Below, piece after piece: positions 2,963-28,854 of a stretch of DNA of 33,890 nucleotides. Both the position numbers and the translations under genes were made by a program. The notes under the pieces are model-generated. The model did not search any database, was not told the origin of the DNA, and was given only the letters and a program-made list of their open reading frames with translations. Origin of the DNA: Candidatus Methylumidiphilus alinenensis (GTDB lineage Bacteria > Pseudomonadota > Gammaproteobacteria > Methylococcales > Methylococcaceae); contig QJPH01000357.1 of assembly GCA_003242955.1 (NCBI GenBank), forward strand, positions 1 through 33,890, read 5' to 3'. Positions within the stretch are counted from its first letter, which is position 1, and every line of letters begins with the position of its first letter.

Positions 2963-2981
2963 GTGATTCTCCAAAAGGATA

Positions 2982-4364
2982 TCATAAGTTTCCAGTGGTT
3001 TTCTCAATAATATAACGTGGTCTCCGTTTGGTTTCCATATAAATTTTTGCTAAATACTCGCCAATGATACCAAGACAAAGTAATTGAATGCCGCCAAGAA
3101 AATAGATAGGTAAAACAGTGGATGCCCATCCAGGTATCGCCAGTTCAGTGAACAGCTTAATCCAGATAGCCCAAATGGTGACTGCAAAACTAATCAAGGA
3201 TACCAGTAAACCTAAGCCAGTGATGAATTTTAAAGGCACATTAGAAAAGGATGTTATACCCTGCCAAGCCAATGAGAGCATTTTTTTTAACGGATATTTT
3301 GATTCTCCAGCAAAACGGTCAGCGCGTTCGTAATACACTATGGTATTAGAAAAACCCAACTGAGGAATAATACCTCGAAGAAACAAATTGACTTCGCCAA
3401 ATTCTCTCAACGCATCAATGACTCGGCGGCTCATTAGCCGGTAATCGGCATGATTGTAGATAATTTCAACGCCCATGATGCCTAGCAACCGATAGTAGGC
3501 TATGGCCGTGAAGTTTTTGAAAAAAGTATCCGTCTTACGAGAACTGCGAACTCCGTACACAATATCGTAGCCTGCGGCATAGTCATCAAGCATCTCTTCG
3601 ATAGCCGCTAAATCATCCTGCAAATCCGCATCGACGCTGATGACAACCTCACCCTTCACCGTCAACAGTCCCGCCAACAGAGCATTTTGATGGCCCAGGT
3701 TGCGAGACAGTTTAATCCCCCGCACAAAGCTGTTAGTTTTGGATAATGTCTCAATCAAGCTCCAAGTTCCGTCGCGGCTGCCATCATCCACATAATATAC
3801 GCAACTATCTAAAGTGACTTTCCCCTTATTTATCAGGTATTGCAATAACTCCGTGAGTCGTTGAACCGTTTCGGGAAGCACTGCTTCTTCATTGTAGCAA
3901 GGAACAACAATACTCAGTTCTGTCATTCGCGTGGTGAGGCTTGCCTTCTTAACGGTCCTAGACTTATTCGCTTGTTCAAGTGTTGGCTGTATGCCTCTAC
4001 GCTCACGGAAAGCAAAGTAGCGACTACCCATAAATCCTATGGCTGTATAGGGAATAATGCCTAATGCTTGGGACAGATAAGCATTCAATTCAAAATGGGA
4101 ATTGGCAAAAAGTACCGTTTCAAGATTCGCCACATAGGCTACTAATAGCACTAGCAAATAGCGGAGGAAACTGTAAACCGGGTGATCCTGGCTTTTAAAA
4201 GTCCATTTTTTGTTTAGGGCAAAACTCACCATAATGCCAATCAAGTAGCCAAACGCATTAGAAGAGGCGACACCCATTTGTAGAAAATACATGGCTAGGT
4301 AGATAGTTCCAAGTCCGACCAGTGTATTAACAATGCCAACAAGCAAATACCGAATTAGAGTCAT
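2982..4364 (-). CDS. GtrA-GT2 fusion: polyprenyl-phosphate glycosyltransferase with flippase-like domain
   Basis: Two proteins that are usually separate are joined in 460 residues. Residues 1-120 are a four-helix GtrA-like domain (RYLLVGIVNTLVG, FALNKKWTF, SRYFAF), the family thought to flip lipid-linked sugars. Residues 148-380 are a GT2 domain of the GtrB/DPM1 type (SIVVPCYNEE, DDGSRDGT, VDADLQDD with the metal-binding acidic residues, RNLGHQNALLAGL, HADYRLMSR), followed by two C-terminal membrane helices. A linker at about 121-147 joins them. The likely role is to transfer a sugar to undecaprenyl phosphate and move it across the inner membrane. An internal ATG (codon 147, at 3926) could give a GT2-only product, but it has no clear ribosome site. 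The gene lies 31 bp after galK and 19 bp before the GH36 start. The sugar is unknown. Confidence 0.9.
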   Translation of the reverse strand: MTLIRYLLVGIVNTLVGLGTIYLAMYFLQMGVASSNAFGYLIGIMVSFALNKKWTFKSQDHPVYSFLRYLLVLLVAYVANLETVLFANSHFELNAYLSQALGIIPYTAIGFMGSRYFAFRERRGIQPTLEQANKSRTVKKASLTTRMTELSIVVPCYNEEAVLPETVQRLTELLQYLINKGKVTLDSCVYYVDDGSRDGTWSLIETLSKTNSFVRGIKLSRNLGHQNALLAGLLTVKGEVVISVDADLQDDLAAIEEMLDDYAAGYDIVYGVRSSRKTDTFFKNFTAIAYYRLLGIMGVEIIYNHADYRLMSRRVIDALREFGEVNLFLRGIIPQLGFSNTIVYYERADRFAGESKYPLKKMLSLAWQGITSFSNVPLKFITGLGLLVSLISFAVTIWAIWIKLFTELAIPGWASTVLPIYFLGGIQLLCLGIIGEYLAKIYMETKRRPRYIIEKTTGNL

Positions 4365-4395
4365 GCAAAATCCCGTGAGTTGTGGGTAACTACTG

Positions 4396-5598
4396 TTAAA
4401 GAAACGTTTCGCCGACGCGTTCGGTACGCACGGTTAGTGTGTGGATCGAATCCGGTCCGAAGACCGCTGCTATGGTTTTCGCATACTTCGGTAAAACCTG
4501 CAAGGGAACATAAGCTTGAATAGTGCCTGCAAATCCCCCGCCGTGTACGCGGCAGGCCCCCTCCCCTTTCATAAACTTGCGGGTGAGCGCCAGACCGAGC
4601 AGAATAGCTTGGTCTTTCACCGCTCCTGTGGGAACCACATTTTGCAGGAACTCAGCCGAGGAATGGCCCGAAGTGTTCACCAGATTCAAGTAGGTGTCGA
4701 AGTCACCGGTCTCAATGGCGTTCACCATATCGTCCACCCGTTGGTTCTCCTCGAAAAAGTGGATGGCTCGGAGCAGTGCCCTGTCACCTACACGGGTACG
4801 CAGGCCGGCGATCCCTGTCCAGAATTGATCCTGTTCCACGTTGCGAAGCACCTCATGGCCGAAGCACTGGGCTACTAGGTTCATCTCAGACCGGATGGCG
4901 GAATAGTCGGAGGTCAGGTCGCCGTGCCTGCTCTTGGTGTCAACGATGCACAACGCCCAACCCTTGGCTTCCCAATCCAGCGTTAGTTGACGGATCTGGG
5001 GGTGAGAAGGGTGCAGAAAGTCGATGTTGACGATGCCGCCAAGGGAGCATGAAATCTGGTCCATCAGACCACAGGGCTTGCCATAATAGTTGTTTTCGGC
5101 CTCCTGCCCGATCACCGCCAATTGCACAGGGTCGACCTGTCCGTCATTGTAGAGGGTGTTAAGGATGTTTCCGGCTAGGATTTCGAAAGCCGCTGAACTG
5201 CTCAGGCCCGAACCCTGGGGTACACTCGATTCAACACAAGCCCGGAAGCCGCCAATCCGGTGTCCGCGCTTTTGGAAGCCGGCAGCTACGCCTCTCAGCA
5301 AAGCCACGGGCCTTCCGGTTTCGGCGCGGTTTGGACCCAAGTCATCCAGTTGGACTTTGAAAGGCTGTTCCCAGCCAGTCGAAAGAAGTTCTATCACTCC
5401 CTCGCAGGGTTGGACCGCAGCGACCAATTCGAGGTCGATGGCGGCGGCCAGCACCTTGCCGTTGTTATGGTCGGTGTGGTTGCCTGCCAGTTCCGTGCGG
5501 CCTGGAGCCGTGAAGAATCTCAGGCCACGGCTGTTGCCATAGGCTTCGCGGAAGCGCTTTTCCAGGCACATAAAAACAGCTTTGCGGTTCGCGTTCAT
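4396..5598 (-). CDS. galK: Galactokinase
   Basis: A GHMP kinase that makes galactose 1-phosphate from galactose and ATP in the Leloir pathway. The 400-residue product has the galactokinase signature near residue 32 (APGRTELAGNHTDHNNG), the phosphate loop PQGSGLSSSAAFE near 127, the catalytic aspartate in CGLMDQ (D180) and the C-terminal GGGFAGT motif. The signature has N40 where E. coli has Glu (GEHTDY), a variant I associate with a GNHTDH subgroup of galactokinases. I chose the ATG at 5598 because it overlaps the galT stop as ATGA, giving translational coupling; an ATG-less extension to 5619 would run further into galT. Assignment is secure. Confidence 0.95.
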   Translation of the reverse strand: MNANRKAVFMCLEKRFREAYGNSRGLRFFTAPGRTELAGNHTDHNNGKVLAAAIDLELVAAVQPCEGVIELLSTGWEQPFKVQLDDLGPNRAETGRPVALLRGVAAGFQKRGHRIGGFRACVESSVPQGSGLSSSAAFEILAGNILNTLYNDGQVDPVQLAVIGQEAENNYYGKPCGLMDQISCSLGGIVNIDFLHPSHPQIRQLTLDWEAKGWALCIVDTKSRHGDLTSDYSAIRSEMNLVAQCFGHEVLRNVEQDQFWTGIAGLRTRVGDRALLRAIHFFEENQRVDDMVNAIETGDFDTYLNLVNTSGHSSAEFLQNVVPTGAVKDQAILLGLALTRKFMKGEGACRVHGGGFAGTIQAYVPLQVLPKYAKTIAAVFGPDSIHTLTVRTERVGETFL

Positions 5599-6629
5599 TG
5601 CAATGCCATTTCGCTGCATGCACGCAGACGGTCGGCGGCCTGCTCTGGGGTAATGTCGCGTTGAGGCTGGGCCAGCATCTCGTAGCCCACCATGAATTTC
5701 TTCACGGTGGCGGAACGCAGGAGTGGCGGTAGGAAATGCACATGGAGTTGCCAGCCTTCGTGTCCCAATCCGTCGGTTGGCCGCTGGTGAAGGCCCATCG
5801 AGTAGGGGAAGCTGACACCGAACAGGTTGTCATATCGTCGTGTCATGCGGCCTAGGGCATCGGCAAAGCCATCTATCTCGGCAGTGCTTAGTTCGGTCAG
5901 ATCGCGGCGTTGGGCTTTAGGCAGCAGCATTGTTTCGAAGGGCCAGACGGCCCAGAAAGGCACCACGGCGGCCCATGTGTCGTTTTCGAAGATTATACGC
6001 TCGGGGTTTGAAATTTCGAGTTTCAAGTAGTCCAGTAATAGAACCGAGCCCTTGTCCTTTTTCCAAGCGGCTTGGCGTTCGGTCTCGCGGGCCGGAAGGT
6101 CGGGAACGGTCTTCTGTGCCCAGATCTGACTATGGGGGTGGGGGTTGGAACAGCCCATGATTTCGCCACGGTTTTCAAAAATCTGAACGTGATTGATGTC
6201 GGGTCGGTCCCCAAGCTCGTTGTACTGGTAAGTCCACTCTTTCACTACTGCCACCAGTCCTTTCAGGTCCATCGTGGCCACGGTCAGATCGTGGCGAGGG
6301 CTGATGCAGACCACTTTGCATATCCCCAACTCCGACTCGGCAATCAGAAGACCGTTTCCGTCATTGCGCGAAGCCGCAGGGACATCTTCCAGCAACGCCG
6401 GGAAATCATTGGTGAAAACAAACACCTCTTTGTAGTCAGGGTTTACTGTGTCGCCGGCCCGCTTGTTGCCGGGGCAAAGGTAACAAGCGGTATCGTGCCG
6501 AAGCAGTACCGCTGGGGGCAGACTCTCAACCTTGCCCTGCCAAGGCCGCTGGGTGCGATGGGGCGACACCAGCACGGTTTCGCCAGTCAGAGGGTTGAAG
6601 CGGTTATGGGGAACATCGTTCCAATTCAT
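5595..6629 (-). CDS. galT: Galactose-1-phosphate uridylyltransferase
   Basis: GalT exchanges galactose 1-phosphate with UDP-glucose to give UDP-galactose and glucose 1-phosphate. The 344-residue protein has the N-terminal RFNPLTGETVLVSPHRTQRPW, the zinc-site pair CYLC (C49, C52) with H113 and H164, and the active-site HPHSQIW, in which H166 is the uridylylated histidine. Starting at the ATG at 6629 gives H166 the same number as in E. coli, which supports this start. A longer reading to 6680 would draw its first residues from the 126-bp repeat and is unlikely. galE and galM are not in the window. Transcription must come from within or across the repeat at 6669-6794. Confidence 0.95.
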   Translation of the reverse strand: MNWNDVPHNRFNPLTGETVLVSPHRTQRPWQGKVESLPPAVLLRHDTACYLCPGNKRAGDTVNPDYKEVFVFTNDFPALLEDVPAASRNDGNGLLIAESELGICKVVCISPRHDLTVATMDLKGLVAVVKEWTYQYNELGDRPDINHVQIFENRGEIMGCSNPHPHSQIWAQKTVPDLPARETERQAAWKKDKGSVLLLDYLKLEISNPERIIFENDTWAAVVPFWAVWPFETMLLPKAQRRDLTELSTAEIDGFADALGRMTRRYDNLFGVSFPYSMGLHQRPTDGLGHEGWQLHVHFLPPLLRSATVKKFMVGYEMLAQPQRDITPEQAADRLRACSEMALQ

Positions 6630-6668
6630 AGGTACTTCATCAATGATGCTCCTGGTGGTTGAATTTCT

Positions 6669-6794
6669 GGCTTTGGTCATCGTTCAGCCCGATGGGTGAG
6701 TTTGTGGAGTGCGGCGACTCGTCGCCGCATGGTTCCGAAAGCGGCGACAAGTCGCCGCACTCCACATTGGGCGGGCTGAACGATGACCAAGGCC
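6669..6794. repeat. 126-bp palindromic element, copy 1 (inverted relative to copies 2 and 3)
   Basis: The outer arms are GGCTTTGGTCATCG and CGATGACCAAGGCC; the inner arms are GTGGAGTGCGGCGACTCGTC and its complement around a short loop. The segment can fold into one long hairpin. The 7-bp sequence GAATTTC lies directly outside both ends (6661-6667 and 6795-6801), as a target-site duplication would. It sits between the stop of the membrane glycosyltransferase gene and galT. Confidence 0.85.
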
Positions 6795-13839: not shown

Positions 13840-16800
13840 TCACCCGGCATTTATGCGCCTGACCGGCGCACCAGACCATTCCGTGCCTTTGAGCAGTCGT
13901 TCCCCCTTCATCAGCAGTGACAGGTCGCCGACCTTCACATCGTCCTCGATCACCGTGTCATACAGAATTAGCGTGTTACTACCGATTGATACCCGTGAAC
14001 CGATAACCACGTTAGACATCTTCATCACGCGGTCCTCGAACAGATGGGTCTGGATGGTGCAATCTTCGTTCAGGGCGACATCATCACCAAGCCGGACTAG
14101 ATCAAACTCGGTGAAATCTGTTGTCATGAGGCAAGCCCGCCGTCCGATGTGCATGCCCAACATGCGGAAATACCAAGGCAGGAAAACTGTGCCGCGCAAA
14201 TGCGAAGTGAGGAATTCATTGGTGAAGTGCTCGCAAAACCCCGTCACCAGTTCGGTGCGCCATACGAAAGGACTCCACAAGGGTTGTTCGGCAGGCTTGT
14301 ATCGGCCAACGATCAACAGTTTCATGATGACGGTCAATGCAACGCCCGCGACCCCGAAGACGATGTAAAGCAAGGGAAATGCTAGAGCCGCGACGGTCGG
14401 GCCGAAGTCATCCTCAATCTGGATGGAGAAGGACAGCATTAGGGTGGTGAATACCACAAAACCCGTGGAGGGCAGGATCACTCGGAAAAATTCGATGAAC
14501 AGGCGCTGACAATAGACAAACAGCGTAGGATGGTAGGTTCTTTCCTCCGTGAACTGGTGTTCCGATTTTTGGCGTTGGGGAAGGTACACAGCGGGTGTGC
14601 CGACCCATGATGTCCCATCCGGGGTCACATCCCCTGGCGGGCTGCTCTGGCAACCAAGCAGGCAGTTGTCTCCGATCTTCGCACCGACCGGGACATAGGC
14701 ATTATTGCCAATGAAGCTCTTCGAACCGATGACGGTTTTTTTTAGTATCAGGTTGCCGTCGAAGGCTTTGGCTGGCCCAAGCGCAGCGTTGTCGGCGATG
14801 AAACTGCCATCGCCGATAGTCAACAAGTCGGGGAGGATGAAAGCAGCAGTGGAAACTTCGGCGTTTTTGCCGATCTTGACGCCTAAGGCCCGATACCAAG
14901 GGTTGAGATAGATCGTGGAATAAAGCGTCAGCAACAAATCTAGGCTGGAACCCATCAATTTATCCACAACCCATTTGCGTAGGTAAAACCAGCTTTTGAC
15001 GGAATAGACACCTTCCTTCAACTTTCCCAGCAGGACCCACTTGAGCAACAGAATCTGCAAGGCGGACAATACCACGAAGATGAGGGCAACGACGGGGGCC
15101 AACAGCAGATAGCCATAGTCCTCGCTCGCATAATCGAAGTGGTACATGAAAACGATGCCAGGAAAAATAGGCAACAGTGACACGGCGGGGAGGATAAAGA
15201 AACTGACTCCGTAAAATACAGTGGCCAAGGCATCCTTAAATGGCGACTCATGCCTGTTTCCCTCCCTTGGGGGTCCGTCCTCCCCGCGAATGGCCGGCGA
15301 CCCGGACCAGTATTCGTTCTCTCCAAGGCGCTGGCCGCTGGCTATGCAGGTGTGATCGCCGATGACCGTGTCATCTCCGATTTCCACATCCATGCCGACA
15401 GACGAGCGTATGCCAATGCAAACATTATTCCCTACGGTTATTCTACGGACTTTTAACAGCCCGTCCTCCAGCCCGTAGCAGGATAGATTGGCATCGGCGT
15501 TGATGCAAACATCCTCGCCCATGCTCAACAAATCCAAACCGGCGACCAGATGGGACTCTATATGCGCCCCTTTGCCAATCTTGGAACCTAGGCACTTGAG
15601 ATAAATGCACAGCAGCGGCGTACCCGACAAAAAATGGATGGGTACACAATTCAGCACTCGCTGGACAAATAGCCACCTTAGGTAATAGAATCCCCAGATC
15701 GGATAGTCACCTTCCTTCAACCGGCCTAGCACCAGCCATTTGCAGGCGATGCCGAGCAATAACATCACGGGGTAGACGACCACAAGGCCCATGAACGAAG
15801 CCCCCAAAGATTCCCAGAAAGGGTATTCGTAGGCTTTTAGGAAACTGTAAATCAGAAAGGGCGTGACCCACTGGAGCGCAAAAAAGCCCATGATGAAATA
15901 CACCATGAGTGCTTGCAAACAAACACTTAGGCGGTATTTCCAAGCCCCTATATGGAAGAATGGGGTTGCCCCCTTGGCTTCGCCAGCCCCCAGTGTTTTC
16001 GCTATATGGTTCGCCAAATAAGCCGCTAGTTTTGCTATCGTCGGATGGGCATAGATGTCTCCCATGGACAGGTCCGAAAACCGGTTGTCCATGCGCATTG
16101 CGGAAACAAATTCGGCTGCCAGCAAGGAGTGCCCACCCAAATTAACAAAGAAATCGTCGGTTTCGTCGATGATATCGGTGCTGAAAAGCTTGCGCCATTG
16201 ATCGTAGATGGCTTGTTTTAGCGGAGAATCGAATTCTTGAGCGGTCCCTTGAGCAATTTTCCTGTCAGGTGCAGGGAAAGCTTTGCGGTCAACCTTGCCA
16301 CTGGGAAGTAGCGGGAAAGACTGGGTTGATTCAATGAAGGCAGGGACCATATAAGGCGGCAGTATCCGTTTGAGCCGGGTGATGAGTTCCTGCTCATCGA
16401 CATGCGCCCCCTCTGCACTGATCACATAGGCTGCCAATACCGGGCGGCCTTCGATTTCTTGGACCAAGGCCACCGCGTTGAGGATACCGGCTTGGGTGCG
16501 GAGTAGAGCTTCAATCTCGGCCAGTTCCACGCGAAACCCTCGAATTTTTACCTGAGTGTCAATCCGCCCCAAGTATTCGATAGCGTCGTCCGCATTAATC
16601 CTAGCCATGTCACCGGTGCGGTAAAGGGTCGGGCTATCATCGCCCGTTAGTCCGGCCTGGACATTCACAATGAATTGCTTTGCAGTCAGTTCCTCGCGGT
16701 TCAGATAACCCTTTGCCACCCCGTTGCCGCCTATTACGAGTTCCCCTTCCTGCCCTTTTTCAAGAAGGCTCCCGTCCTCGTCCATGATATAGATCGTATA

Positions 16801-17859
16801 ATTTGCGAGCGGACGGCCAATTGTGACTTTTTCATGTGGTCGGCAGAGGCTGGCGGTGGCAACCACGGTGGTTTCTGTCGGGCCATAGGTGTTATAGATG
16901 CGGCGATCCGGTGAGAACCAAGGTTTAATGAAGTCTTCTGGCAGGGTTTCCCCTCCCAAGATAAGCAGCCGTATGGAAGGGACAGGCTTTGGCATCGTCG
17001 CCAATAGGGTTGGCACACAGGAAAGGACGCTGATCTGTAATTCGGCAAGCACTTTGCACAGATCAGGACCGGCATGCATGATTTCCGGCGTGCCTGCGAT
17101 TAGGGTGGCCGCTGCATTGAAGGCAGTCCAGACTTCCTCAACCGAGGCATCAAAGGCCAAGGAAAAGCCTTGCAGCAGTCGGTCTTCTGGCCTTACTGCA
17201 TAGATCTGTTGTTCGGCGAGTATTAAGTGGTAAGCATTGCCATGGCAAATCGGCACACCCTTGGGCTTTCCGGTGGAACCCGAGGTGTAGATGACATAAG
17301 CCTCGTCTTCAGGTCCAATATTTGTTGGGACAGGCTTTTTACTCTGTTTGTCGATTTCGTTCCTGGATTCGTTGAGGTATATTTTCGGTATGTCGATTTC
17401 CCCAGCGAGATCGAAGAACTCCAGGCTTGTTAGCAGGGCCACCGCCGCACTGTCCGAAACGATGAAGCGGACGCGCTCCTCGGGGTAGGAAGGGTCTAGG
17501 GGTACGTAAGATGCCCCGGCTTTAAGTATTCCCAATATGGCAGTGTATATTTCCAAAGATTTGGAGAGGAGAAGGCAGATGCGTTGACCCTTGCCGATTC
17601 CGACGCTATGAAGGAAATTGGCAAACCGGTTCGTCTGCGATTCCATATCCCCATAACTAATGTTACTGCCCCTGCATTCGACGGCAATGCGATCTGGATA
17701 TAGATTGGCACTGTTTTCAAACAGCGTGTGGAGAAGCCCACTCTTGGTTATTGAAGGATCGGGGTTTTGCAGGAATGCGTATTTCTTGTCAGAAAAACTT
17801 ACCTGTTCAATAGGACGAATAAGTTTTTCAGTATCGGTATCTATTATTTCCAGTTTCAC
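13840..17859 (-). CDS. Pls/PosA-family single-module non-ribosomal peptide synthetase (poly-amino-acid synthetase-like)
   Basis: A 1339-residue protein with an adenylation domain at about 45-525 (YVIYTSGSTGKPKG, YGPTETT, YRTGDMARI, KIRGFRVELAEIE, LPSGKVDRKAF), a carrier domain with phosphopantetheine Ser578 (GGHSLLAAEF) and three tandem C-terminal units at about 640-858, 875-1094 and 1115-1335. Each unit has two membrane helices, a K-x-L-x-x-G-[KR]-x-K turn, a hexapeptide-repeat beta-helix and a closing W-x-G-x-P motif. There is no condensation or thioesterase domain. This is the architecture of Streptomyces epsilon-poly-L-lysine synthetase. Aligned by eye to GrsA, the pocket reads D237 A238 E241 S280 I300 G302 T324 V332 V333 K522, close to the lysine code DAESIGSVCK recalled for bacitracin synthetase. 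I chose GTG 17859, which has GAGG 5 nt upstream; GTG 17877 is the alternative. Product inferred: a lysine-type homopolymer. Confidence 0.9.
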   Translation of the reverse strand: MKLEIIDTDTEKLIRPIEQVSFSDKKYAFLQNPDPSITKSGLLHTLFENSANLYPDRIAVECRGSNISYGDMESQTNRFANFLHSVGIGKGQRICLLLSKSLEIYTAILGILKAGASYVPLDPSYPEERVRFIVSDSAAVALLTSLEFFDLAGEIDIPKIYLNESRNEIDKQSKKPVPTNIGPEDEAYVIYTSGSTGKPKGVPICHGNAYHLILAEQQIYAVRPEDRLLQGFSLAFDASVEEVWTAFNAAATLIAGTPEIMHAGPDLCKVLAELQISVLSCVPTLLATMPKPVPSIRLLILGGETLPEDFIKPWFSPDRRIYNTYGPTETTVVATASLCRPHEKVTIGRPLANYTIYIMDEDGSLLEKGQEGELVIGGNGVAKGYLNREELTAKQFIVNVQAGLTGDDSPTLYRTGDMARINADDAIEYLGRIDTQVKIRGFRVELAEIEALLRTQAGILNAVALVQEIEGRPVLAAYVISAEGAHVDEQELITRLKRILPPYMVPAFIESTQSFPLLPSGKVDRKAFPAPDRKIAQGTAQEFDSPLKQAIYDQWRKLFSTDIIDETDDFFVNLGGHSLLAAEFVSAMRMDNRFSDLSMGDIYAHPTIAKLAAYLANHIAKTLGAGEAKGATPFFHIGAWKYRLSVCLQALMVYFIMGFFALQWVTPFLIYSFLKAYEYPFWESLGASFMGLVVVYPVMLLLGIACKWLVLGRLKEGDYPIWGFYYLRWLFVQRVLNCVPIHFLSGTPLLCIYLKCLGSKIGKGAHIESHLVAGLDLLSMGEDVCINADANLSCYGLEDGLLKVRRITVGNNVCIGIRSSVGMDVEIGDDTVIGDHTCIASGQRLGENEYWSGSPAIRGEDGPPREGNRHESPFKDALATVFYGVSFFILPAVSLLPIFPGIVFMYHFDYASEDYGYLLLAPVVALIFVVLSALQILLLKWVLLGKLKEGVYSVKSWFYLRKWVVDKLMGSSLDLLLTLYSTIYLNPWYRALGVKIGKNAEVSTAAFILPDLLTIGDGSFIADNAALGPAKAFDGNLILKKTVIGSKSFIGNNAYVPVGAKIGDNCLLGCQSSPPGDVTPDGTSWVGTPAVYLPQRQKSEHQFTEERTYHPTLFVYCQRLFIEFFRVILPSTGFVVFTTLMLSFSIQIEDDFGPTVAALAFPLLYIVFGVAGVALTVIMKLLIVGRYKPAEQPLWSPFVWRTELVTGFCEHFTNEFLTSHLRGTVFLPWYFRMLGMHIGRRACLMTTDFTEFDLVRLGDDVALNEDCTIQTHLFEDRVMKMSNVVIGSRVSIGSNTLILYDTVIEDDVKVGDLSLLMKGERLLKGTEWSGAPVRRINAG

Positions 17860-17890
17860 AATATCCTCACAAAACACTTCTTATTTCGGC

Positions 17891-19201
17891 TCAGTTGATT
17901 ATCTTACGTTTCCGATTGAGCGCCTGTCTCGCTTGATGGACGACGATGGAGAGTATTTTCAACTGGTCGGCATCTAGGGGAGTTTCCGCATCGGGCCCAA
18001 GTGATCTGGCCACAATAGTGTCGATTTCGTCTTCGAACTTGTCGAGTTCTTCCGGGTTGGCGTTCCGTGCTTCACGCATAATCCCAATAAGCCTGTCAAT
18101 CTCCAATCTCCCGTTATTCTTAATGGGTTTTTTACGGGAGCCGAGCAACCACGCAAATCCCGAACCGAACACGCCCAGTACAATTGAAGTCAAGTAAAGT
18201 ATGTTGGTGGCGCTGTCGACTAAGGAGGTTTGCTCGCCGCTGAAAAATGCAGCCGCACCAGGGTGGACTGGCAGCGCTTCATTCTTATCGTCGGAGTCAG
18301 GTTCCTCGATCTGCATCGCAATGGGCGTTACGGATATGAGTCTTGCTTTGGCAAGGAACAAAATTCGAGCGACTTCGCCGACAACGAAGTCCGGCAGCGA
18401 ATATTTGGCGACCAAGCGATAGGTCACGGCCAGCGTGGTCAAATCTTCCTCAGGTCGAGGAGAAGCCCCTCCGAACGCCCCGGCCTCGATGTCGTTAGAT
18501 TCCACCCCCGTAAGCTGTTTGGCAATCGCCGCCGCTTGTTTGTCCCCAATCAATTCAGGGGGGGATTTCGTCGCGTGGGTAATGGAGGCAATGACCTTGG
18601 ATATCAGCCCAGGACCCACCGGGCCTAGCGCCAAAATACCGACGACCCTTTTTTGGGTGACGGCCTCCCCGGTTTCCTCGAAAGATAGCAACTCACGCCC
18701 CACCCTGCCTGGTGAAATGTTGTAATAATTTAGAATAGCGTCGAGCAGGTGTTCCAACTGCCTGTCTTCTTCCTCTGCGCCTGATTTGAGAATGCCAATC
18801 TTCTTACCTGCAAGGTTCTGCAAACTCGTGATGTGAGAATGGGCCGGTACAATCAAGACAAGGCTGTCGCGCCTTAAAATGGCAACCGTCAGACCGTTTT
18901 TTGGCATCAAAATATCGCTACGAACAACGGCAAGATCCGCCGTGCCATTTTCCAGAGCCTTGGCACTCATAGCCATATTGTCGTTTTGAATGCGGTGGAG
19001 GCGGACATGCGGTTCCTCCTCGGCAAAGACTTGGTTGATCGCACTTAACCCCAGCACCCCACCCTCAAGGGCGGGGCCGGTGGCAACATTCAACGGCCAA
19101 ACGGCCAAACTAGAGTTCCACCAAAGCGTTGCAACCCCCCCGATGGCAAGAACGCAAAGCAAAGTGACCAAAATTAGGTTAGATGCAATATTTCGTATCA
19201 T
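17891..19201 (-). CDS. TAXI-family TRAP-type solute-binding protein, membrane-anchored
   Basis: A 436-residue member of the TAXI (TRAP-associated extracytoplasmic immunogenic) family, periplasmic receptors that normally pass a ligand to a TRAP permease. A signal anchor (ILVTLLCVLAIGGVATLWW) opens it, followed by VATGPALEGG, NGTADLAVVRSD, LAGKKIGILKSGAEE and LAVTYRLVAKYSLPDFVV, which fit the two-lobed binding fold. Unlike a soluble receptor it has a second membrane helix at about 328-352 and a charged cytoplasmic tail of about 80 residues. No TRAP permease gene is present. It precedes the Pls-like synthetase by 31 bp, so it may serve that system as a membrane sensor or supply protein (inference). 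The ATG at 19201 lacks a good ribosome site; TTG 19240, behind GGGGCG, is possible and would overlap the GT4 remnant. Confidence 0.82.
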   Translation of the reverse strand: MIRNIASNLILVTLLCVLAIGGVATLWWNSSLAVWPLNVATGPALEGGVLGLSAINQVFAEEEPHVRLHRIQNDNMAMSAKALENGTADLAVVRSDILMPKNGLTVAILRRDSLVLIVPAHSHITSLQNLAGKKIGILKSGAEEEDRQLEHLLDAILNYYNISPGRVGRELLSFEETGEAVTQKRVVGILALGPVGPGLISKVIASITHATKSPPELIGDKQAAAIAKQLTGVESNDIEAGAFGGASPRPEEDLTTLAVTYRLVAKYSLPDFVVGEVARILFLAKARLISVTPIAMQIEEPDSDDKNEALPVHPGAAAFFSGEQTSLVDSATNILYLTSIVLGVFGSGFAWLLGSRKKPIKNNGRLEIDRLIGIMREARNANPEELDKFEDEIDTIVARSLGPDAETPLDADQLKILSIVVHQARQALNRKRKIIN

Positions 19202-19622
19202 AGCTACAGTGAGGATATTCAAGTATAACACGCTTGCCAAACAGTCGCCCCATCAACATTGCCGGCACGGGGGCGATCAAGAAGTTCCAGTAGCTGGCGG
19301 AAAAGGCATGTCCCACGTCTGCACGGGGGATTTTCGCAGCAACAAGAGTGTGTAGAGGATTAAATTTCCAATACCAGAGCGAAGGCTTGGGCTTTGGGAG
19401 AAAGGATTGGGGCATCTCTCCGTGGAACGTCATTGTTGACGTACGCAGAAACAGACGGTCAACAACGACAACAAACCGGGTATGTGTACCCCATCCATCG
19501 AACGGTGGAGGGTATTTGGCTATCTCTAAAAATGGAGGTGCATCTTTTTTGGGAGGCATCAGAAAATTTAATAGCGTTGGGATTGTTGGCAATGATACCA
19601 TCATACTGTTTAATTCGACCAT
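19179..19622 (-). pseudogene. Truncated GT4-family glycosyltransferase (N-terminal remnant)
   Basis: A 147-residue frame whose middle and end match the acceptor-side domain of GT4 glycosyltransferases: YPPPFDGWGTHTRF near residue 38 and ADVGHAFSASYWNFLIAPV, then LMGRLFGKRVILEY near residues 100-135. The similarity stops at about 19215. The remaining residues (PHCSYDTKYCI) come from the 5' end of the TAXI gene read in another frame. The GT-B C-terminal domain, which binds the nucleotide sugar, is missing, so the product should be inactive. It starts 34 bp after the outer-membrane lipoprotein gene. A deletion probably joined this fragment to the TAXI gene and left TAXI without its own upstream region. 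GT4 assignment is from pattern recognition only. Confidence 0.6.
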
Positions 19623-19656: not shown

Positions 19657-21135
19657 TTACTCTACCGGAAACGGCAGATAGTCCGTCCACTTAGTCTCGC
19701 CACCCGCTTCGTCAGGCCCCGGCAGGGCTGAAGTGTCCCAACCGCCGCCCAGTGCCGTGACAAGCAGCACGGCGGCGGTCAATCGTCTGCCCTTCAGTTG
19801 CACGGCATTATTCTCACTAGCCAAAGCAGCGGCTTGGGCGACCATGACATTCAGATAGCCCACCGTACCTGATTTGTACTGATTGACTGTCAACGCCAAA
19901 GATTCGCGGAAGGCACGTACCGCTCTGTCCTGTACTTCAGCCTCTTCTTCTAGGATGCGCAATGCGGCTACGTTGTCTTCCACCTGCTGAAAACCGGTTA
20001 GTATCGTTTGTTTATAGTTGGCGACGGCGGCATCGAAGGCATCGACGGTCTGCTTCAATTGCGCGTTTCGCGCCCCCCCGTCGAAAAGAGTCAATACTGC
20101 GGAGGAAGGGCCCAACGCCCAATAACGGCTCGCCATGGAGAATAAAGACGAGAGCGTGTTGGTTTGATAACCGTTGTTGGCGGACAAGGTGACTGTCGGA
20201 AAGTAAGCCGCCTTGGCCACGCCGATTAGCGCATTGGCGGCGGCGATCTGGCGCTCGGCGGTGGCGATGTCAGGCCGCCGCTCCAGCAGTTGCGAGGGGA
20301 TGCCGACCGGTATCGGTGGTGGAACCGCAGTCAGCGGCGCGGCATCCAGGGACAGTTCATACGGGGGTTTGCCGATCAACACCGCCACCGCATGTTCCAT
20401 CTGCGCCCGCAGCACCCCAACATCAATGGCTTGGGCATGGGCCGACTCGAGTTGGGACTCGGCCAGTGCCACGTCAGTTCGCGCCGCGACCCCCGCCGCA
20501 TAACGGTTTTGCGTCAATTCTAGCGATTTCTGGTAAGAGGCTGCGGTTTCATCCAGCAGTTTTCTCTGCGCATCCAGCGCACGCATCTGAAAGTAATCCT
20601 GGGCCAGGGTGGCTTGGGTGGAAAGGCGCAAAGCCTGCATGGTGCCGGCGCTGGCTTGGGCGCTGCCGATGTTGGACTCGACCTGCCTGCGCACGACACC
20701 CCATAAATCGGGTTGCCAGGTTGTGGAAAAGTTTTCCGTAAACAAATATTTGACACCGGGGACTGCGGCACTCGTCCCGCTGACGGAACGGAAGCGATTG
20801 ACCGCTGTCGTCGAGCTAGCAGTGGGGAAAAACGCGGCCCGCGCCGCCTGTACCAAGGCTTGCGCATGGCGGTATTGGGACTCGGCCTGGGCGATGGATT
20901 GATTGCCGGTGGCGACTTGTTCCTCCAGCGCATTCAATTGCGGGTCTTGGAATATCTCCCACCATTTGCCGGGAGGCAGGTGATCGCGTGGCTGCGCCTG
21001 TTTCCACCCTTTAAGTTCTTTGAAAGCAGCGGGGGTTGGCATAGTCGGGCGGACATAATCCGGACCGACGGTGCAGCCTGCCAGTAGTATGGCCAAAATC
21101 GGGAATGACAGTTTTTTCGAGTATCGGGACATCAT
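19657..21135 (-). CDS. RND efflux outer-membrane lipoprotein, OprM/NodT family
   Basis: A TolC-like outer-membrane channel for the RND pump encoded just upstream. The 492-residue product starts with a lipoprotein signal (SFPILAILLAGC, lipidated Cys21), then TVGPDYVRP, the usual start of the mature NodT-family protein. Two outer-membrane-efflux repeats follow, with long alpha-helical segments such as ALVQAARAAFFPT and the LLERRPDIATAERQIAAANALIGVAKAAYFPT motif near residue 290. It begins 13 bp after the mdtC stop. A TTG at 21165 would overlap mdtC and add residues before the signal. Gene order mdtA-mdtB-mdtC-channel supports a dedicated tripartite pump, whereas E. coli MdtABC borrows TolC. Confidence 0.93.
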   Translation of the reverse strand: MMSRYSKKLSFPILAILLAGCTVGPDYVRPTMPTPAAFKELKGWKQAQPRDHLPPGKWWEIFQDPQLNALEEQVATGNQSIAQAESQYRHAQALVQAARAAFFPTASSTTAVNRFRSVSGTSAAVPGVKYLFTENFSTTWQPDLWGVVRRQVESNIGSAQASAGTMQALRLSTQATLAQDYFQMRALDAQRKLLDETAASYQKSLELTQNRYAAGVAARTDVALAESQLESAHAQAIDVGVLRAQMEHAVAVLIGKPPYELSLDAAPLTAVPPPIPVGIPSQLLERRPDIATAERQIAAANALIGVAKAAYFPTVTLSANNGYQTNTLSSLFSMASRYWALGPSSAVLTLFDGGARNAQLKQTVDAFDAAVANYKQTILTGFQQVEDNVAALRILEEEAEVQDRAVRAFRESLALTVNQYKSGTVGYLNVMVAQAAALASENNAVQLKGRRLTAAVLLVTALGGGWDTSALPGPDEAGGETKWTDYLPFPVE

Positions 21136-21148
21136 ATGAAACTTGAGA

Positions 21149-24100
21149 TTACTGAGTATGGTCAACTACCGGATTAGGTCTGAAACCGCGGCCACACCAG
21201 AGCCGGAACCGCTCCAAATAGAGATAAACCACTGGCGTGGTGTAAAGCGTGAGCATTTGGCTGACGATCAGGCCACCGACGATGGTGATTCCCAATGGTC
21301 GGCGCAGTTCCGCCCCATAGCCGGAACCAAGCGCCAGCGGCAAGGCACCGAGTAGGGCTGCGAAGGTCGTCATCATGATCGGGCGAAAACGGATCATACA
21401 CGCGGTGAAAATGGCTTCGTGAGCATCAATCCCTTGTTCGCGCTCCGCATTTAGGGCAAAGTCGATCATCATGATGGCGTTCTTTTTCACTATGCCGATC
21501 AACAAAATTACGCCGATCAAGGCGATGATGCTAAATTCCGTGCCGGTTGCCAGCAGGGCAAGAATCGCCCCGACACCGGCGGAGGGCAAGGTGGAGATAA
21601 TGGTGATGGGGTGTACGTAGCTCTCATAGAGGATGCCCAGCACGATGTAGATGGCGAAAAGGGCGGCTAAAATCAGCCAGGGCTGGTTTTTCAACGAGTC
21701 TTGGAACACCTTCGCCGTACCTTGGAAGCCGCTGTGGACCGATGCCGGCACACCGATTTCTTGCAAGGTTTTTTTAATGATCTCGGTTGCATCGGAGAGT
21801 GAGTATCCGGGTTTCAGGTTGAAGGAGATGGTCGCCGCAGCGAATTGTCCTTGATGGTTGACGGTCAACGGCGTGTTGGTCGGCGCGTAACTCGCAAAAG
21901 CCGACAGCGGTGGCTGGGTGTTGGCCGTTTGCGGTGTCACCGGGGCGACGCTAAGGTAAATTTGCCGCAAAGTTTGTGAGTTTTGCCAATATTCGGGGGC
22001 CAGTTCCATCACGACATGGTATTGATTGAGCGGGTTGTACATGACGGAAACCTGGCGCTGTCCGAAGGCATCGTTTAAGCTCGCATCAATCAATGCCATG
22101 TTGACCCCGAGCCGCGTCGCCGCGTCGCGGTCCACTTTCAGCGACACCTGCTGCCCCTTGTCCTGCTGGTCGGTGTTGACATCCGTCAGTTCGGGGCGTG
22201 TGGACAGTGCCTTGAGGATTTTCGGTGCCCACTCGCGCAGATCGGCCAGGTGTTCCGCCTGCAAGGTATATTGGAACATGGAGGCCGACAACCGGCCACC
22301 CACGTTGAGTTCTTGCTGCGGTTGCAGAAACAGACTAGCCCCAGGCTCGTTTGCCAGCTTTTTACGCAAACGGCCCAAGATGAGGTCTAGGGGGGCATCC
22401 CGATCTTCCGGTGGCTTGAGCACCGCGAACATCCGGGCGGTGTTACTGCCCTGCTGACCACCTGCAACGCCAATGACGTTGTCTATGGCCTGGTCTTGCC
22501 GCACGATATTGACAAAGTCGGCCAGTTTTTTCGCCATGGACTGGAACGAGGTGCTCTGGTCCGCCTGGATGGTGCCACCCAGCCTCCCTGTGTCCTGCAC
22601 CGGGAAAAACCCCTTGGGTATGATCACATAGAGATAGATGTTCAGTCCTATTGTGCACAAAAGCAGAAGCATCATCAGGCGTGGATGGCCCAAGGCCCAG
22701 CGCAAACTTCGTTCATAGCCTCGTAGCAGACGGTCGAAAAGGCGTTCCACCCAGAGGTAGATGCGACCGTGTTGTTTGCTTTCCGGTTTGAGCAAGCGCG
22801 CACAAAGCATGGGGGTAGTGGTCAACGACACCACCAGCGACACCAACACGGCGACGGAAAGAGTGACCGCAAACTCCCGAAATATTCGTCCGACGAGTCC
22901 GCCCATCAGCAATATCGGAACAAACACGGCAATCAGCGACAAGCTCATGGATAGCACCGTGAAACCGACTTCCTCGGTGCCTTTTAGCGCGGCCTGGAGC
23001 GGGGGAACCCCCTTTTCGATGTGGCGGGAGGTATTCTCCAGCACCACGATGGCATCATCGACCACGAAGCCGGTGGCGATGGTCAAAGCCATCAGTGACA
23101 GGTTGTCGATGCTGTAATGGCATAGGTACATCACCCCGAAGGCCCCGATCAGTGAAACCGGCACGACGATGATCGGGATAAGGGCCGAAGCCGGATTGCG
23201 CAGGAACACAAACACCACAAAAATCACCAGTCCGATGGAGATAAACAGGCTTTTCCCCACTTCGTTGACAGATGCCCTGATGGTCGTAGAACGGTCCACC
23301 ACCACCGACAGGTCGATGGCGTTTGGGATGGATGCCCGTAGTTGCGGGAGCATGGCCTTCACCTTTTCCACCGTTTCGATGACGTTGGCACCGGGCTGTT
23401 TGAACAGGATCAGCAGCACGGAGGGTTTGCCATTTTTCAGTCCGGCATTGCGCAGGTCTTCCACCGAATCCACCGCTGTGCCGAGGTCGGCGATGCGCAC
23501 GGCGGCGCCATTGCGATACGCCACGATCAGCGGCAGGTATTCCTTGGCGCTTTTGGCCTGATCATTGGCCTGGATTTGCCAATAATGCCTGTCATCTTCC
23601 ACTGAACCTTTGGGGCGGTTCGGATTGGCCGCGACAATAGCCGTGCGGACATCTTCCAGCCCCACGCCGTATTTCGCCAAGGCATTGGGATTCAACTCGA
23701 CCCGCACCGCAGGCAATGAACTGCCGCCTACGGTCACTTGTCCGACTCCCCGGATTTGGGAGATTTTTTGCGCCAGAATCGTCGAAGCCGCATCATACAT
23801 TTGACCGCGAGTCTGGGTATCCGAGGTCATTGCCAGAATCAGGATGGGGGAGTCGGCCGGGTTTACTTTGCGATAATTGGGACGGCTGGGTAAATTGGTG
23901 GGCAGTAGGCTACTGGCGGCGTTGATAGCCGCCTGCACATCGCGGGCCGCGCCGTCAATGTCACGATCAAGGTCGAATTGCAGGGTGATGTTGGTGGAGC
24001 CCAGGGAACTCGATGAAGTCATCTCCGTAATGCCGGCAATCCGTCCCAAAGACCGTTCAAGCGGGGTGGCCACTGTGGCAGCCATGGTTTCCGGACTGGC

Positions 24101-24259
24101 ACCGGGCAGGGAAGCCGAAACGTTGATGGTAGGATTATCCACCTGTGGCAACGGTGCCACAGGTAGTTGTAGAAAGGCGATGATGCCCGCCAGTGTCAAG
24201 CCGATGGTCAGCAGTGTAGTGGCGACTGGCCGATAGATGAAAAATGCGGATAGATTCAC
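21149..24259 (-). CDS. mdtC: RND inner-membrane transporter, MdtC-like
   Basis: A 1036-residue RND proton-drug antiporter of the type that pairs with MdtB as a hetero-trimer. It opens with [15 protein letters not shown] and matches MdtC in length and motifs: [21 protein letters not shown], the proton-relay pair in [29 protein letters not shown] with the relay lysine, and [20 protein letters not shown]. Twelve membrane helices and two large periplasmic loops fit the family. The GTG at 24259 lies 18 bp after the mdtB stop, behind GACGAGG. In E. coli MdtABC exports novobiocin and bile salts and affects zinc and copper tolerance; the substrate here is unknown. Confidence 0.95.
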
Positions 24260-24277
24260 GCCTCGTCACCCATCATT

Positions 24278-27200
24278 TTATTCCCCCTTTTGCAAAGGTG
24301 GGTAGGGGGGATTTTCCAGCCTGCCACTCACACGGCGGGCCATCCGGTCCATGGCTAAATAAATGACCGGTGTCGTGAACAGGGTCAATAGTTGGCTCAA
24401 GATCAAGCCACCGACCATCGTGATCCCCAGCGGATGGCGCAGTTCCGATCCTACTCCGGTTCCCAACATCAGCGGAAGGGCACCGAGCAATGCCGCCAGG
24501 GTCGTCATCATGATGGGCCGAAAGCGCAGCAGGCAAGCCTGATGAATAGCCTCTCTAGGCGGCAGACCCTGCTTGCGTTCCGCATCCAGGGCAAAGTCGA
24601 TCATCATGATGGCGTTCTTTTTCACGATGCCAATCAGCAGGATGATGCCGATAATGCCGATGATGCCGAGGTCCATATCCGAAGCCATCAGTGCAAGCAG
24701 GGCACCGACACCGGCAGAGGGCAGGGTTGAAAGTATCGTGATAGGGTGGATATAGCTTTCGTAAAGAACCCCAAGCACGATATATACCGTCACGATGGCG
24801 GCGAGAATCAGCCATAGCGTATTGGTCAGCGAGGCGGTGAAAGCCAAAGCCGCGCCTTGGTAATTGGTGCGGACGCTCAATGGCATGCCGATTTCTTCTT
24901 TGGCCGCCTCAATGGCCTTGACCGCATCGCCTAGGGAAGCCCCCGGTGCCAGATTGAAGGAAATCGTCGAAGATGGAAACTGGCCTTGGTGATTGATGGA
25001 TAAAGAGGTTTGACGCTCCGACACCTGTGCAATGGCGGACAAGGGGACTTGCGTCCCGTTAGTCGAAGGGATGCGAAGATCATTTAGGGACTCCGGGCCA
25101 CCACGATAATCGGGTTTCACTTCGAGCACTACCCGGTATTGGTTCGACTGGGTGAAGATGGTGGACACCAACCGTTGCCCGTAAGCATCGTACAGGATGT
25201 TGTCGATGGCCGCCGTAGTGACCCCTAGGCGGCTCGCGGTGTTGCGGTCAATGGACACGAACGCTTGCAGCCCCTGGTCTTGCAGATCGCTGTTGACCTC
25301 GGTGATTTCATGCACATGGGAAAGCCGCTCGACGAGGCGATGCGTCCATTGATTCAACTCCTCTGGAATGGCTGTCTCCAGGGTAAACTGGAATAAGGTG
25401 CGGCTGACCCGGTTTTCCAGGGTGAGGTCCTGCACCGGTTGGAGAAACAGCGAAATGTCCTGTACTTCCGCCAGCTTAGGCTGTAGCCTCCGGATCACCT
25501 CCGTGACATTCACCCCCCGCACGTCCAGCGGTTTCAGATTGATTAGGAAGCGGCCACTGTTCAGAGTGGGATTAGTGCCGTCCACACCGATGAATGAAGA
25601 CAGGCTTTCCACTGCCGGGTCTTGCAGAATGATATTAGCCAAAGCTTTTTGCCGCACCCCCATGGCAGGGAAGGAAATGTCCTGTGGCGCTTCTGAAATC
25701 CCTTGGATGAGCCCGGTGTCTTGAACCGGAAAGAACCCCTTGGGTATGATGATGTAAAGCCACACGGTCAGCCCTAAGGTTGCGAACGCGATAAGCAAAG
25801 TCAGGGTTTGCCGTTCCAACACCCATTCCAGCATCCGGCCATAACCCGCAATCATCCGGTCAAAAAACCGACCGCTGCTAAGATAAAACCAACCGGCTTT
25901 TTTCTCGTCTATCGGGCGGAGCAGCTTGGCGCACATCATCGGCGTCAAGGTCAGCGACACGACGGCGGAGATGAGAATGGACACCGCCAGCGTGATGGCG
26001 AATTCGCGGAACAGACGACCGACCACATCCCCCATGAACAGCAGTGGAATCAGCACCGCGACCAGCGAAAAGGTCAATGAAATAATGGTGAAACCGATCT
26101 GTTCCGAACCCTTGAGAGCCGCCTCCAATGGGGGGTCGCCTTCTTCAATGTAACGGGAAATGTTCTCGATTACCACGATGGCATCGTCGACCACAAAGCC
26201 TGTGGCGATGGTAAGCGCCATCAGGGTCAGGTTATTGATGCTGAAACCGGCGAGGTACATAACACCGAAGGTTCCGATCAGGGACAATGGAACCGCAATG
26301 CCCGGAATGGTGGTGGCCGGGACATTGCGGAGAAAGACAAAAATCACCAACACGACCAAGGCCACGGACAGCAACAGTTCGATGCGGACATCCCGTACCG
26401 AGGCGCGGATAGTGATCGTGCGATCCGTCAGCGGTGCAATGTCCACCGATGTGGGTAGTATCGCCTGCAATTTAGGAAACAATTGTTGGATGCGGTCTAC
26501 GACTTCGATCACATTGGCGCCCGGCTGGCGCTGGATGTTGACGACGACGGCCGCCGTTCCGTTGGCCCAGGCGGCGAGCCGGACATTCTCGGCACTGTCC
26601 ACCGCGTCGGCGACCTCGGACAGTTTCACCGGGGCACCGTTACGGTAGGCGACAACCAGTTTCTGGTATTCCGCCGCCGACTTGAGTTGGTCATTGGCAT
26701 CAATGATGGCCGCACGGGCCGGACCGTCAAACATACCCTTGGCTTGGTTTACATTGGCGGCGGCAATCGCTGTGCGCAGGTCTTCGAGACTCATGCCGTA
26801 GGCGGCCAAGGCTTTGGGATTAGCGCGGATGCGCACCGCCGGACGCTGCCCACCCGTGATGCTGACCAGCCCGACCCCCGGCAGTTGGGAAATCTTTTGT
26901 GCCAACCGGGTATCGACCAAGTCTTCCACCTGGGACAATGGCAAAATCTTCGAACTGACGGCCAAAGTCAGGATCGGCGCATCCGCCGGGTTGACCTTGT
27001 TGTAAATGGGCGGCATCGGTAGGTCGGTGGGCAGAAACGTGTTGGCGGCATTGATGGCCGCCTGTACTGTTTGTTCGGCGATATCCAAGTCCAAATTGAG
27101 GTTGAACTGCAAGGTGATGACCGATGCGCCGCCTGAACTGGCCGATGACATCTGGTTAAGCCCCGGCATCTGGCCGAATTGGCGCTCCAAGGGTGCTGTG

Positions 27201-27424
27201 ACCGACGAGGTCATGACCTCGGGGCTGGCACCGGGATAAAGTGTCACCACTTGGATCATCGGGTAATCCACTTGTGGCAAGGCCGAAATTGGCAATAACC
27301 GATAAGCTAGGATGCCGACCAACAACAACGCCACCATCAGCAAGGAGGTGGCGACCGGGCGTAAAATGAACGTCCGTGACGGATTAAAGGACGGCAATGG
27401 ATTGGGATCGGACTGAAGGCTCAC
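24278..27424 (-). CDS. mdtB: RND inner-membrane transporter, MdtB-like
   Basis: A 1048-residue RND subunit partnering MdtC. Motifs: [36 protein letters not shown] (nearly identical to E. coli MdtB), [14 protein letters not shown] with the proton-relay aspartates, [15 protein letters not shown] and [20 protein letters not shown] chose the GTG at 27424: it overlaps the mdtA stop as GTGA, has AAAGG 9 nt upstream, and gives an N-terminus like the E. coli one. The last residues ([11 protein letters not shown]) are translated from a C-rich dispersed repeat at 24281-24315, so the natural C-terminus has been replaced or extended by repeat sequence. The rest of the protein looks intact. Confidence 0.95.
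24281..24315. repeat. C-rich dispersed repeat, copy 2, inside the mdtB 3' end
   Basis: On the minus strand this reads AATCCCCCCTACCCACC, then TTTGCAAAAGGGGG. It belongs to a repeat type seen in many gammaproteobacteria and cyanobacteria, and is related to 902-938 and 32739-32764. Here it is in frame and encodes [10 protein letters not shown] at the end of MdtB. Confidence 0.75.
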
Positions 27425-28821: not shown

Positions 28822-28854
28822 CAATAATAATGCGATTGTGTGTCCATAATCTTA

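Follow-up and report, generated by a model that had tools for sequence, protein, structure and literature searches.

What would a synthetase with an adenylation domain, a carrier domain and three tandem membrane units make in a Gram-negative bacterium, and where along its chain would it make it? The question is raised by a gene on contig QJPH01000357.1 of Candidatus Methylumidiphilus alinenensis (assembly GCA_003242955.1), a 33,890-nucleotide stretch of DNA that was analyzed as a whole and is referred to below as the window; within the assembly (6.57 Mb in 597 contigs), it is contig 44. Judged from its sequence, the gene quite probably encodes a polylysine-type synthetase of the Pls/PosA family, predicted to make an isopeptide-linked, cationic lysine homopolymer similar to the polylysine used to preserve food.

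Gene, domain layout and fold

13840..17859, minus strand: gene of a Pls/PosA-family synthetase (preferred start, the GTG at 17859; reading frame open to 17877)
16273..17727, minus strand: adenylation domain (approximately residues 51-535 from the 17877 start; Pfam and alignment)
16015..16203, minus strand: carrier (thiolation) domain, with its GGHS site at residues 581-584
13861..15918, minus strand: C-terminal polymerization part, three membrane and predicted beta-helix units (TIGR02353 match)

The longest open reading frame (ORF) from the first possible start spans 13840-17877 on the minus strand (1345 amino acids [aa]). Because the closest homologue, L009, shares TGAGGATATTGTG with the window at the GTG at 17859 but has ATA at the site of the window's earlier, upstream GTG, the true start is most likely 17859, as an earlier note on this DNA had placed it, and not 17877. 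Residue numbers are counted here from the 17877 start; 6 should be subtracted for the 17859 start. Pfam, listed up to an E value of 1, placed AMP-binding at residues 53-392 and PP-binding at 559-621, followed by hexapeptide repeats; AMP-binding_C (454-528; 24.4 bits) fell marginally below its cut-off of 24.5, and no condensation or thioesterase family was listed in the synthetase. TIGR02353, the curated NCBIfam Pls/PosA model, matched residues 654-1339 with 608.8 bits against a cut-off of 423.1, covering model positions 2-695 of 695, so the C-terminal units do correspond to Pls-type tandem domains and the layout described in the earlier note (adenylation, carrier and three tandem units, without condensation or thioesterase domains) stands. 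The motifs YTSGSTGKPKG, YRTGD, GKVDRK and GGHS are all intact. Comparison of the window and L009 synthetases over 1339 codons (dN, 0.110; dS, 0.877; dN/dS, ~0.13) indicates that the gene is under purifying selection.

The motif W-x-G-x-P occurs exactly three times in the synthetase (at 857, 1091 and 1334), compared with a mean of 0.08 in whole-protein shuffles, none of 1000 of which had three. Profiles of the units, each built from 40 sequences (the window plus 39 homologues, chosen manually for broad coverage of the set), matched one another with E values of 5e-48 (unit 3 versus unit 1) and 5e-25 (unit 3 versus unit 2), and on this evidence we regard the units as true repeats, each ending in the motif, in agreement with the earlier note. 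An AlphaFold model of residues 640-1345, for which the input was the window and 51 of 53 homologues selected at <75% identity, had a mean pLDDT of 93.0 and a pTM of 0.93 and showed three blocks in which long helices precede short strands, an arrangement consistent with that modeled for PosA, whose three beta-helices stand on six helices with rough three-fold symmetry (PMC10522769; this and the other papers cited are drawn on for individual passages). That the strands form beta-helices is read from structural matches: the top matches of units 1 and 3 were hexapeptide acetyltransferases, mostly of the maltose/galactoside O-acetyltransferase type, with Z scores up to 8.3, and Foldseek gave five matches at E values of 0.001 or better, including YrdA, serine acetyltransferase and an LpxD-type chain, with whole-model TM scores no higher than 0.15 among the matches listed. 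Hexapeptide acetyltransferases are soluble homotrimers without an adenylation domain; the synthetase shares the single-unit fold but has three units in one chain, with membrane helices.

Adenylation pocket and predicted substrate

The specificity code, read through alignment to PosA (8g95) and Pls (7wew), is DAESIGTVVK (D243, A244, E247, S286, I306, G308, T330, V338, V339 and K528), the same code that had been read by eye in the earlier note. Chain 8g95 was taken as PosA because the residue numbers and code of PMC10522769 fit it with an offset of two. A 139-residue pocket core aligns to PosA without gaps and to Pls with one four-residue and one one-residue insertion, both outside the pocket positions. 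At each of nine positions that were compared, the pocket residue is the same as in polylysine synthetase 7wew; for the tenth position, only the K528 of the window was read. The two acidic residues used to test for the family, Asp at the first and Glu at the third position of the code, are present (D243 and E247), and PosA mutants at these positions lose activity (PMC10522769). The Met that PosA has at position 2 (code DMEHNGTVSK; PMC10522769) is absent, its place being taken by Ala244. According to the same paper, lysine enzymes carry Ala at position 2, where PosA has Met and the diaminopropionate/diaminobutyrate enzymes have Phe, and the PosA change M218A gave a nearly ten-fold gain with lysine. 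Thus, of the earlier claim of "lysine or other diamino acid," the basic type is upheld by the pocket shared with 7wew, and the choice is narrowed towards lysine by the Ala at position 2. L-Lysine is the best-supported predicted substrate.

We infer that lysine is the real substrate and that it is polymerized, by steps that would run as follows. The adenylation domain would activate L-lysine with ATP and load it onto the carrier domain, which would be primed by a phosphopantetheinyl transferase encoded elsewhere in the genome. The membrane-embedded C-terminal part would then take the lysyl group off the carrier and attach it to a side-chain amine, either of free lysine or of the growing chain; the product would be an isopeptide-linked cationic homopolymer.

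The best-surviving alternative keeps the family and chemistry and changes the substrate to another diamino acid (ornithine, beta-lysine or diaminobutyrate) or to arginine. Codes vary within the family, one homologue is modestly active with arginine, and PosA prefers ornithine yet takes lysine modestly, so that these pockets are not absolute (PMC10522769). The codes reported there for other substrates nevertheless differ from that of the window (PosA, DMEHNGTVSK; beta-lysine, DGESISVVNK; the arginine homologue, DSECYGGVTK; diaminopropionate, Phe at position 2), and the nine-position identity to 7wew also speaks against a different substrate. We therefore consider this alternative unlikely.

Several observations weigh against a lysine polymer synthetase. 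The PosA code is nearest to that of a bacitracin lysine domain, yet the enzyme prefers ornithine (PMC10522769). Elsewhere in the genome there are 37 further adenylation matches, many of them partial; the codes of seven of these domains were read, and although all differ from that of the window, Glu stands at position 3 in three of them, and two codes (DAEGLGTVVK and DAEDIGSVVK) match the window code at eight of ten letters. Because near-identical codes thus occur in ordinary modules of the same genome, a code of the DAESIGTVVK type is not by itself special to polymer enzymes; it is the code and the C-terminal part together that carry the case. The full code could be read in 89 of the 96 rows of an alignment that includes the window and some duplicates and pieces (rows were drawn by similarity to the window, so proportions are not family-wide), and 70 of the 89 start with DAE. 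On a quick tree of 92 C-terminal parts (four partial rows dropped), which has many long branches and unsure deeper placement, the DAE rows do not form one clade and require at least 6 changes, compared with a mean of 21.4 for shuffled codes; the lysine code clusters on the tree without being a single clade. A peptidase is encoded in the operon in Streptomyces and Corynebacterium (PMC8117764), whereas no self-protection peptidase was present among the Pfam-scanned neighbors of the window gene (the genome itself was not searched for one). Finally, Z scores near 8 are weak by the search tool's own warning.

A candidate acyltransfer site in the third unit

15280..15726, minus strand: soluble part of unit 1 (C1; 5 columns invariant among 40 sequences, each a Gly or a Pro)
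14575..15027, minus strand: soluble part of unit 2 (C2; 17 invariant columns among 40 sequences)
13849..14307, minus strand: soluble part of unit 3 (C3; 29 invariant columns among 40 sequences)
14029..14052, minus strand: QTHLFEDR motif (residues 1276-1283) with His1278, the acyltransfer site proposed from conservation

Conservation is distributed very unequally over the three units. Across the 40 sequences per unit, the soluble parts contain 19 invariant columns with a polar residue (D, E, H, K, R, N, Q, S, T or Y), and 16 of these fall in unit 3, among them E1257, D1259, the QTH and EDR of QTHLFEDR, K1286, K1324 and E1326; a few further conserved residues, such as R1125 and E1129, lie between units. 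In the 96-row alignment, E1257, Q1276, H1278, D1282 and E1326 are kept in all 94 rows that have a letter there (the two gaps belong to incomplete pieces), and T1277, E1281, R1283 and K1286 differ in one or two rows. A Streptomyces homologue outside this set, L123 (code DFECLSVVTK), has LQAHSLEDGVFK and keeps the Gln, His, Glu, Asp and Lys of the motif region, but not the Thr and Arg. Because it is conserved across rows with DAE, DF, DME and DLE codes, His1278 is not tied to the substrate. In units 1 and 2 of the window, the His1278 column is occupied by Tyr and Ala, respectively.

Hexapeptide acetyltransferases use a beta-helix histidine as base. From the pattern of conservation, we infer that each chain may have one acyltransfer site, in unit 3, a proposal for and against which we find the case about evenly balanced. 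The fuller proposal, to which we give slightly less than an even chance, is that the C-terminal part is an asymmetric pseudo-trimer descended from a one-unit membrane acetyltransferase, whose histidine survives only in unit 3 (His1278) and has disappeared from units 1 and 2, which serve as scaffold. The unit 3 profile matched PDB sequences weakly (best E value, 9.6e-8), and the best match, 3ixc, places Asp and not His opposite His1278, which counts against a single histidine site. All three tandem domains are essential, and a few residues are conserved in all three, according to PMC4668381, which cites Kito 2013 for the essentiality; this fits scaffold roles as well as it fits three sites. A figure legend in PMC7179176 marks residues conserved for polymerization after Kito 2013, and the conservation in unit 3 may be partly known already. 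The unit 3 motif is not named in any title or abstract opening found by our literature search, which is not proof of absence.

Single-unit relatives bear on the same site. Fifteen matches to TIGR02353 below its cut-off (L094-L108), aligned to the three units, all have His in the His1278 column. Fourteen of these alignments are trusted (L097 seems to be read in a wrong frame), two pairs (L099/L100 and L107/L108) are apparently near-copies, and aligners tend to stack histidines; these histidines therefore lend support to His1278 as the site and do not prove it. For three of the proteins (L094, L095 and L096), from two genomes of the family of the window and one of its order, TIGR02353 is the best NCBIfam match, although below its cut-off, and proteins of this type are possible ancestors of the C-terminal part. 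They are stand-alone one-unit proteins with frames of 222-258 aa and, by eye, hydrophobic N-terminal stretches.

The existence of such stand-alone proteins, together with the resemblance of the units to acetyltransferases that modify sugars or other small molecules, could also mean that lysine is activated without a free polymer being made, the C-terminal part lysylating some other acceptor, such as an envelope component. The characterized members with the full layout, however, yield homopolymers (PMC10522769, PMC8117764 and PMC4668381), and the C-terminal score exceeds the cut-off of the family model by a wide margin, which makes transfer to another acceptor quite improbable.

Distribution, neighborhood and meaning

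We return to the polylysine-type synthetase and its host. The best named relatives come from metagenome-assembled genomes (MAGs): L009 (81%) and L010 (67%, partial) from Methylococcaceae and L011 (68%, cut at a contig end) from a gammaproteobacterium. By these nearest named records, the host is of Methylococcaceae type and Gram-negative, the latter in line with the earlier note. L009 and L010 apparently correspond to G004:C139 and G005:C41, two contigs from the same genus. One strong PF02461 (methane/ammonia monooxygenase) match in the genome (419.5 bits) fits a methane oxidizer. The synthetase passes the cut-off in 5 of 61 relatives (the genome itself included), namely, 3 of 7 in the genus and G023 and G028 in the family; the latter two are of a different type, within the DF-code branch (their loci do not cover the first three code letters). 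Eight of 369 genomes of the class (again including its own) pass, and a ninth hit is a fragment, apparently of the genome of L011. Family members are also carried by plasmid records of Sphingomonas, Azospirillum, Rhizobium and others (69 records).

On the tree, the window groups with two Methylococcaceae rows (support, 100), next with seven Holophagaceae rows and one Sandaracinaceae row (91, not starred) and then with mostly Verrucomicrobiota and Planctomycetota rows (81). Both PosA-code rows and 15 of 16 DF-code rows lie on other well-supported branches. L124 and L130, both from Streptomyces, sit on a common branch of length 3.13 that joins four other rows (80), within a 56-row group (97, starred) that also includes the window and ornithine-code rows. 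Transfer of the synthetase between phyla is likely. The frames of the seven Holophagaceae homologues (L025-L028 and L030-L032) extend ~176-205 residues beyond the match end. In a homologue from a Coxiellaceae MAG (L062, 7983-11933), an in-frame stop leaves the gene in two frames; L113 probably represents this gene again.

That the gene is a decaying or silent acquisition is very improbable: its presence is patchy (the 3 of 7 same-genus genomes above), and an upstream 147-aa frame resembles a gene remnant, but the frame of the synthetase is open, its motifs are intact, and dN/dS relative to L009 is ~0.13. The 147-aa frame (19179-19622, minus strand) has no family match; two of its stretches match a frame in G004. 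Because one of these contains an internal stop, the frame is probably a remnant; our guess is that it derives from a glycosyltransferase.

Two neighbors were considered as partners.

17891..19240, minus strand: TAXI-like solute-binding protein gene, linked upstream (a candidate partner only)
19657-28824, minus strand: resistance-nodulation-division (RND) pump operon, MdtABC-like, upstream of the synthetase (membrane-fusion protein, MdtB- and MdtC-like permeases, with outer-membrane channel)

The TAXI-like gene ends 31 bp upstream of the preferred synthetase start and is in the same place in L009 (80% identity; dN, 0.120; dS, 1.07). Its score against the TRAP_TAXI model was 60.2 bits, below the cut-off of 84.35; by eye, the protein has a C-terminal membrane segment and tail. 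Strong matches were found in 2 of 41 relatives, both synthetase positive, with the pairing seen in one congener, and two weak, short matches were found in G045 and on another contig of the genome itself; G005 has the synthetase and no TAXI-like match. Of 398 genomes of the phylum, 25 (its own included) match at an E value of 1e-20 or better, the others at no more than 34% identity among the matches listed, and none of the 11 fetched loci (~1.5 kb of flank where the contig allows) carries a synthetase. On these counts, we rejected TAXI as a general partner. The pairing is not named in any title or abstract opening that the literature search returned; this, too, does not prove absence. No RND pump lies within 8 kb upstream in L009, which shares only the TAXI gene (the rest of that contig was not searched), and elsewhere permeases were matched only in L042 and L057 (21-24% identity); the pump is not supported as a conserved partner, and we rejected it as a dedicated exporter.

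Of 349 relatives, the loci of the best 80 were compared, some of them truncated at contig ends; the neighbor that recurs most often is a phosphopantetheinyl transferase (14 loci, 13 within ~125 bp; family checked by Pfam on one member), also annotated near a Sphingomonas plasmid synthetase. The sole PF01648 match in the genome of the window is a 279-aa frame with both transferase domains, on another contig. An ABC-type cluster occurs in 11 of the 80 loci at scattered distances. In the window, a GH3 glucosidase ORF overlaps the synthetase 3' end, and promoter and terminator scans were at shuffle level (12 versus 12.9 and 22 versus 22.4). A sugar block occupies 956-6680 on the minus strand (raffinose-synthase-like, GtrA-glycosyltransferase fusion, galactokinase-like and galactose-1-phosphate uridylyltransferase genes). 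The genome is rich in other genes like those of nonribosomal peptide synthetases (G000 contigs C3, C13, C180 and C197), including an 8142-residue open frame.

Compared with known systems, the window synthetase has the adenylation-carrier-three-unit layout of Streptomyces Pls (PMC8117764) and the same pocket residues at the nine positions compared, but it belongs to a Gram-negative bacterium. L124, a Streptomyces homologue that has this code, shows ~30% identity to it over 638 residues of the C-terminal part. PosA, the delta-poly-L-ornithine synthetase of Acinetobacter baumannii, shares the family, the Gram-negative host and the gapless pocket core and differs in code. The poly-diaminopropionate synthetase likewise combines adenylation and carrier domains with three C-terminal domains arranged in tandem between membrane segments (PMC4668381), but it has Phe at code position 2 (PMC10522769), and DF-code homologues lie on another branch, bar one long-branch row. 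The family has been reported in Actinobacteria, Proteobacteria, cyanobacteria, fungi and archaea, lysine-type codes occur in many genera, and a first product has come from outside Actinomycetes (PMC10522769); non-alpha poly-amino acid clusters have been reported in methanotrophs, more rarely in Methylococcaceae than in some other families (PMC11964084); and NCBI annotation already names Gram-negative members. Gram-negative members and methanotroph clusters are thus already published, and the window adds a lysine-code member from a Methylococcaceae-type genome.

Lysine-type-code relatives in Verrucomicrobiota, Planctomycetota, Acidobacteriota and Bacteroidota are candidate sources of polylysine-like polymers. 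Comparison across lysine-, ornithine- and DF-code homologues reveals the fixed residues of a poorly understood polymerization part, and because most of these lie in unit 3, the site of isopeptide bond formation without a condensation domain becomes testable by point mutants. If real, a single unit 3 site would mean abandoning, across the family and whatever the amino acid, the view that the three domains are equivalent and condensation-like.

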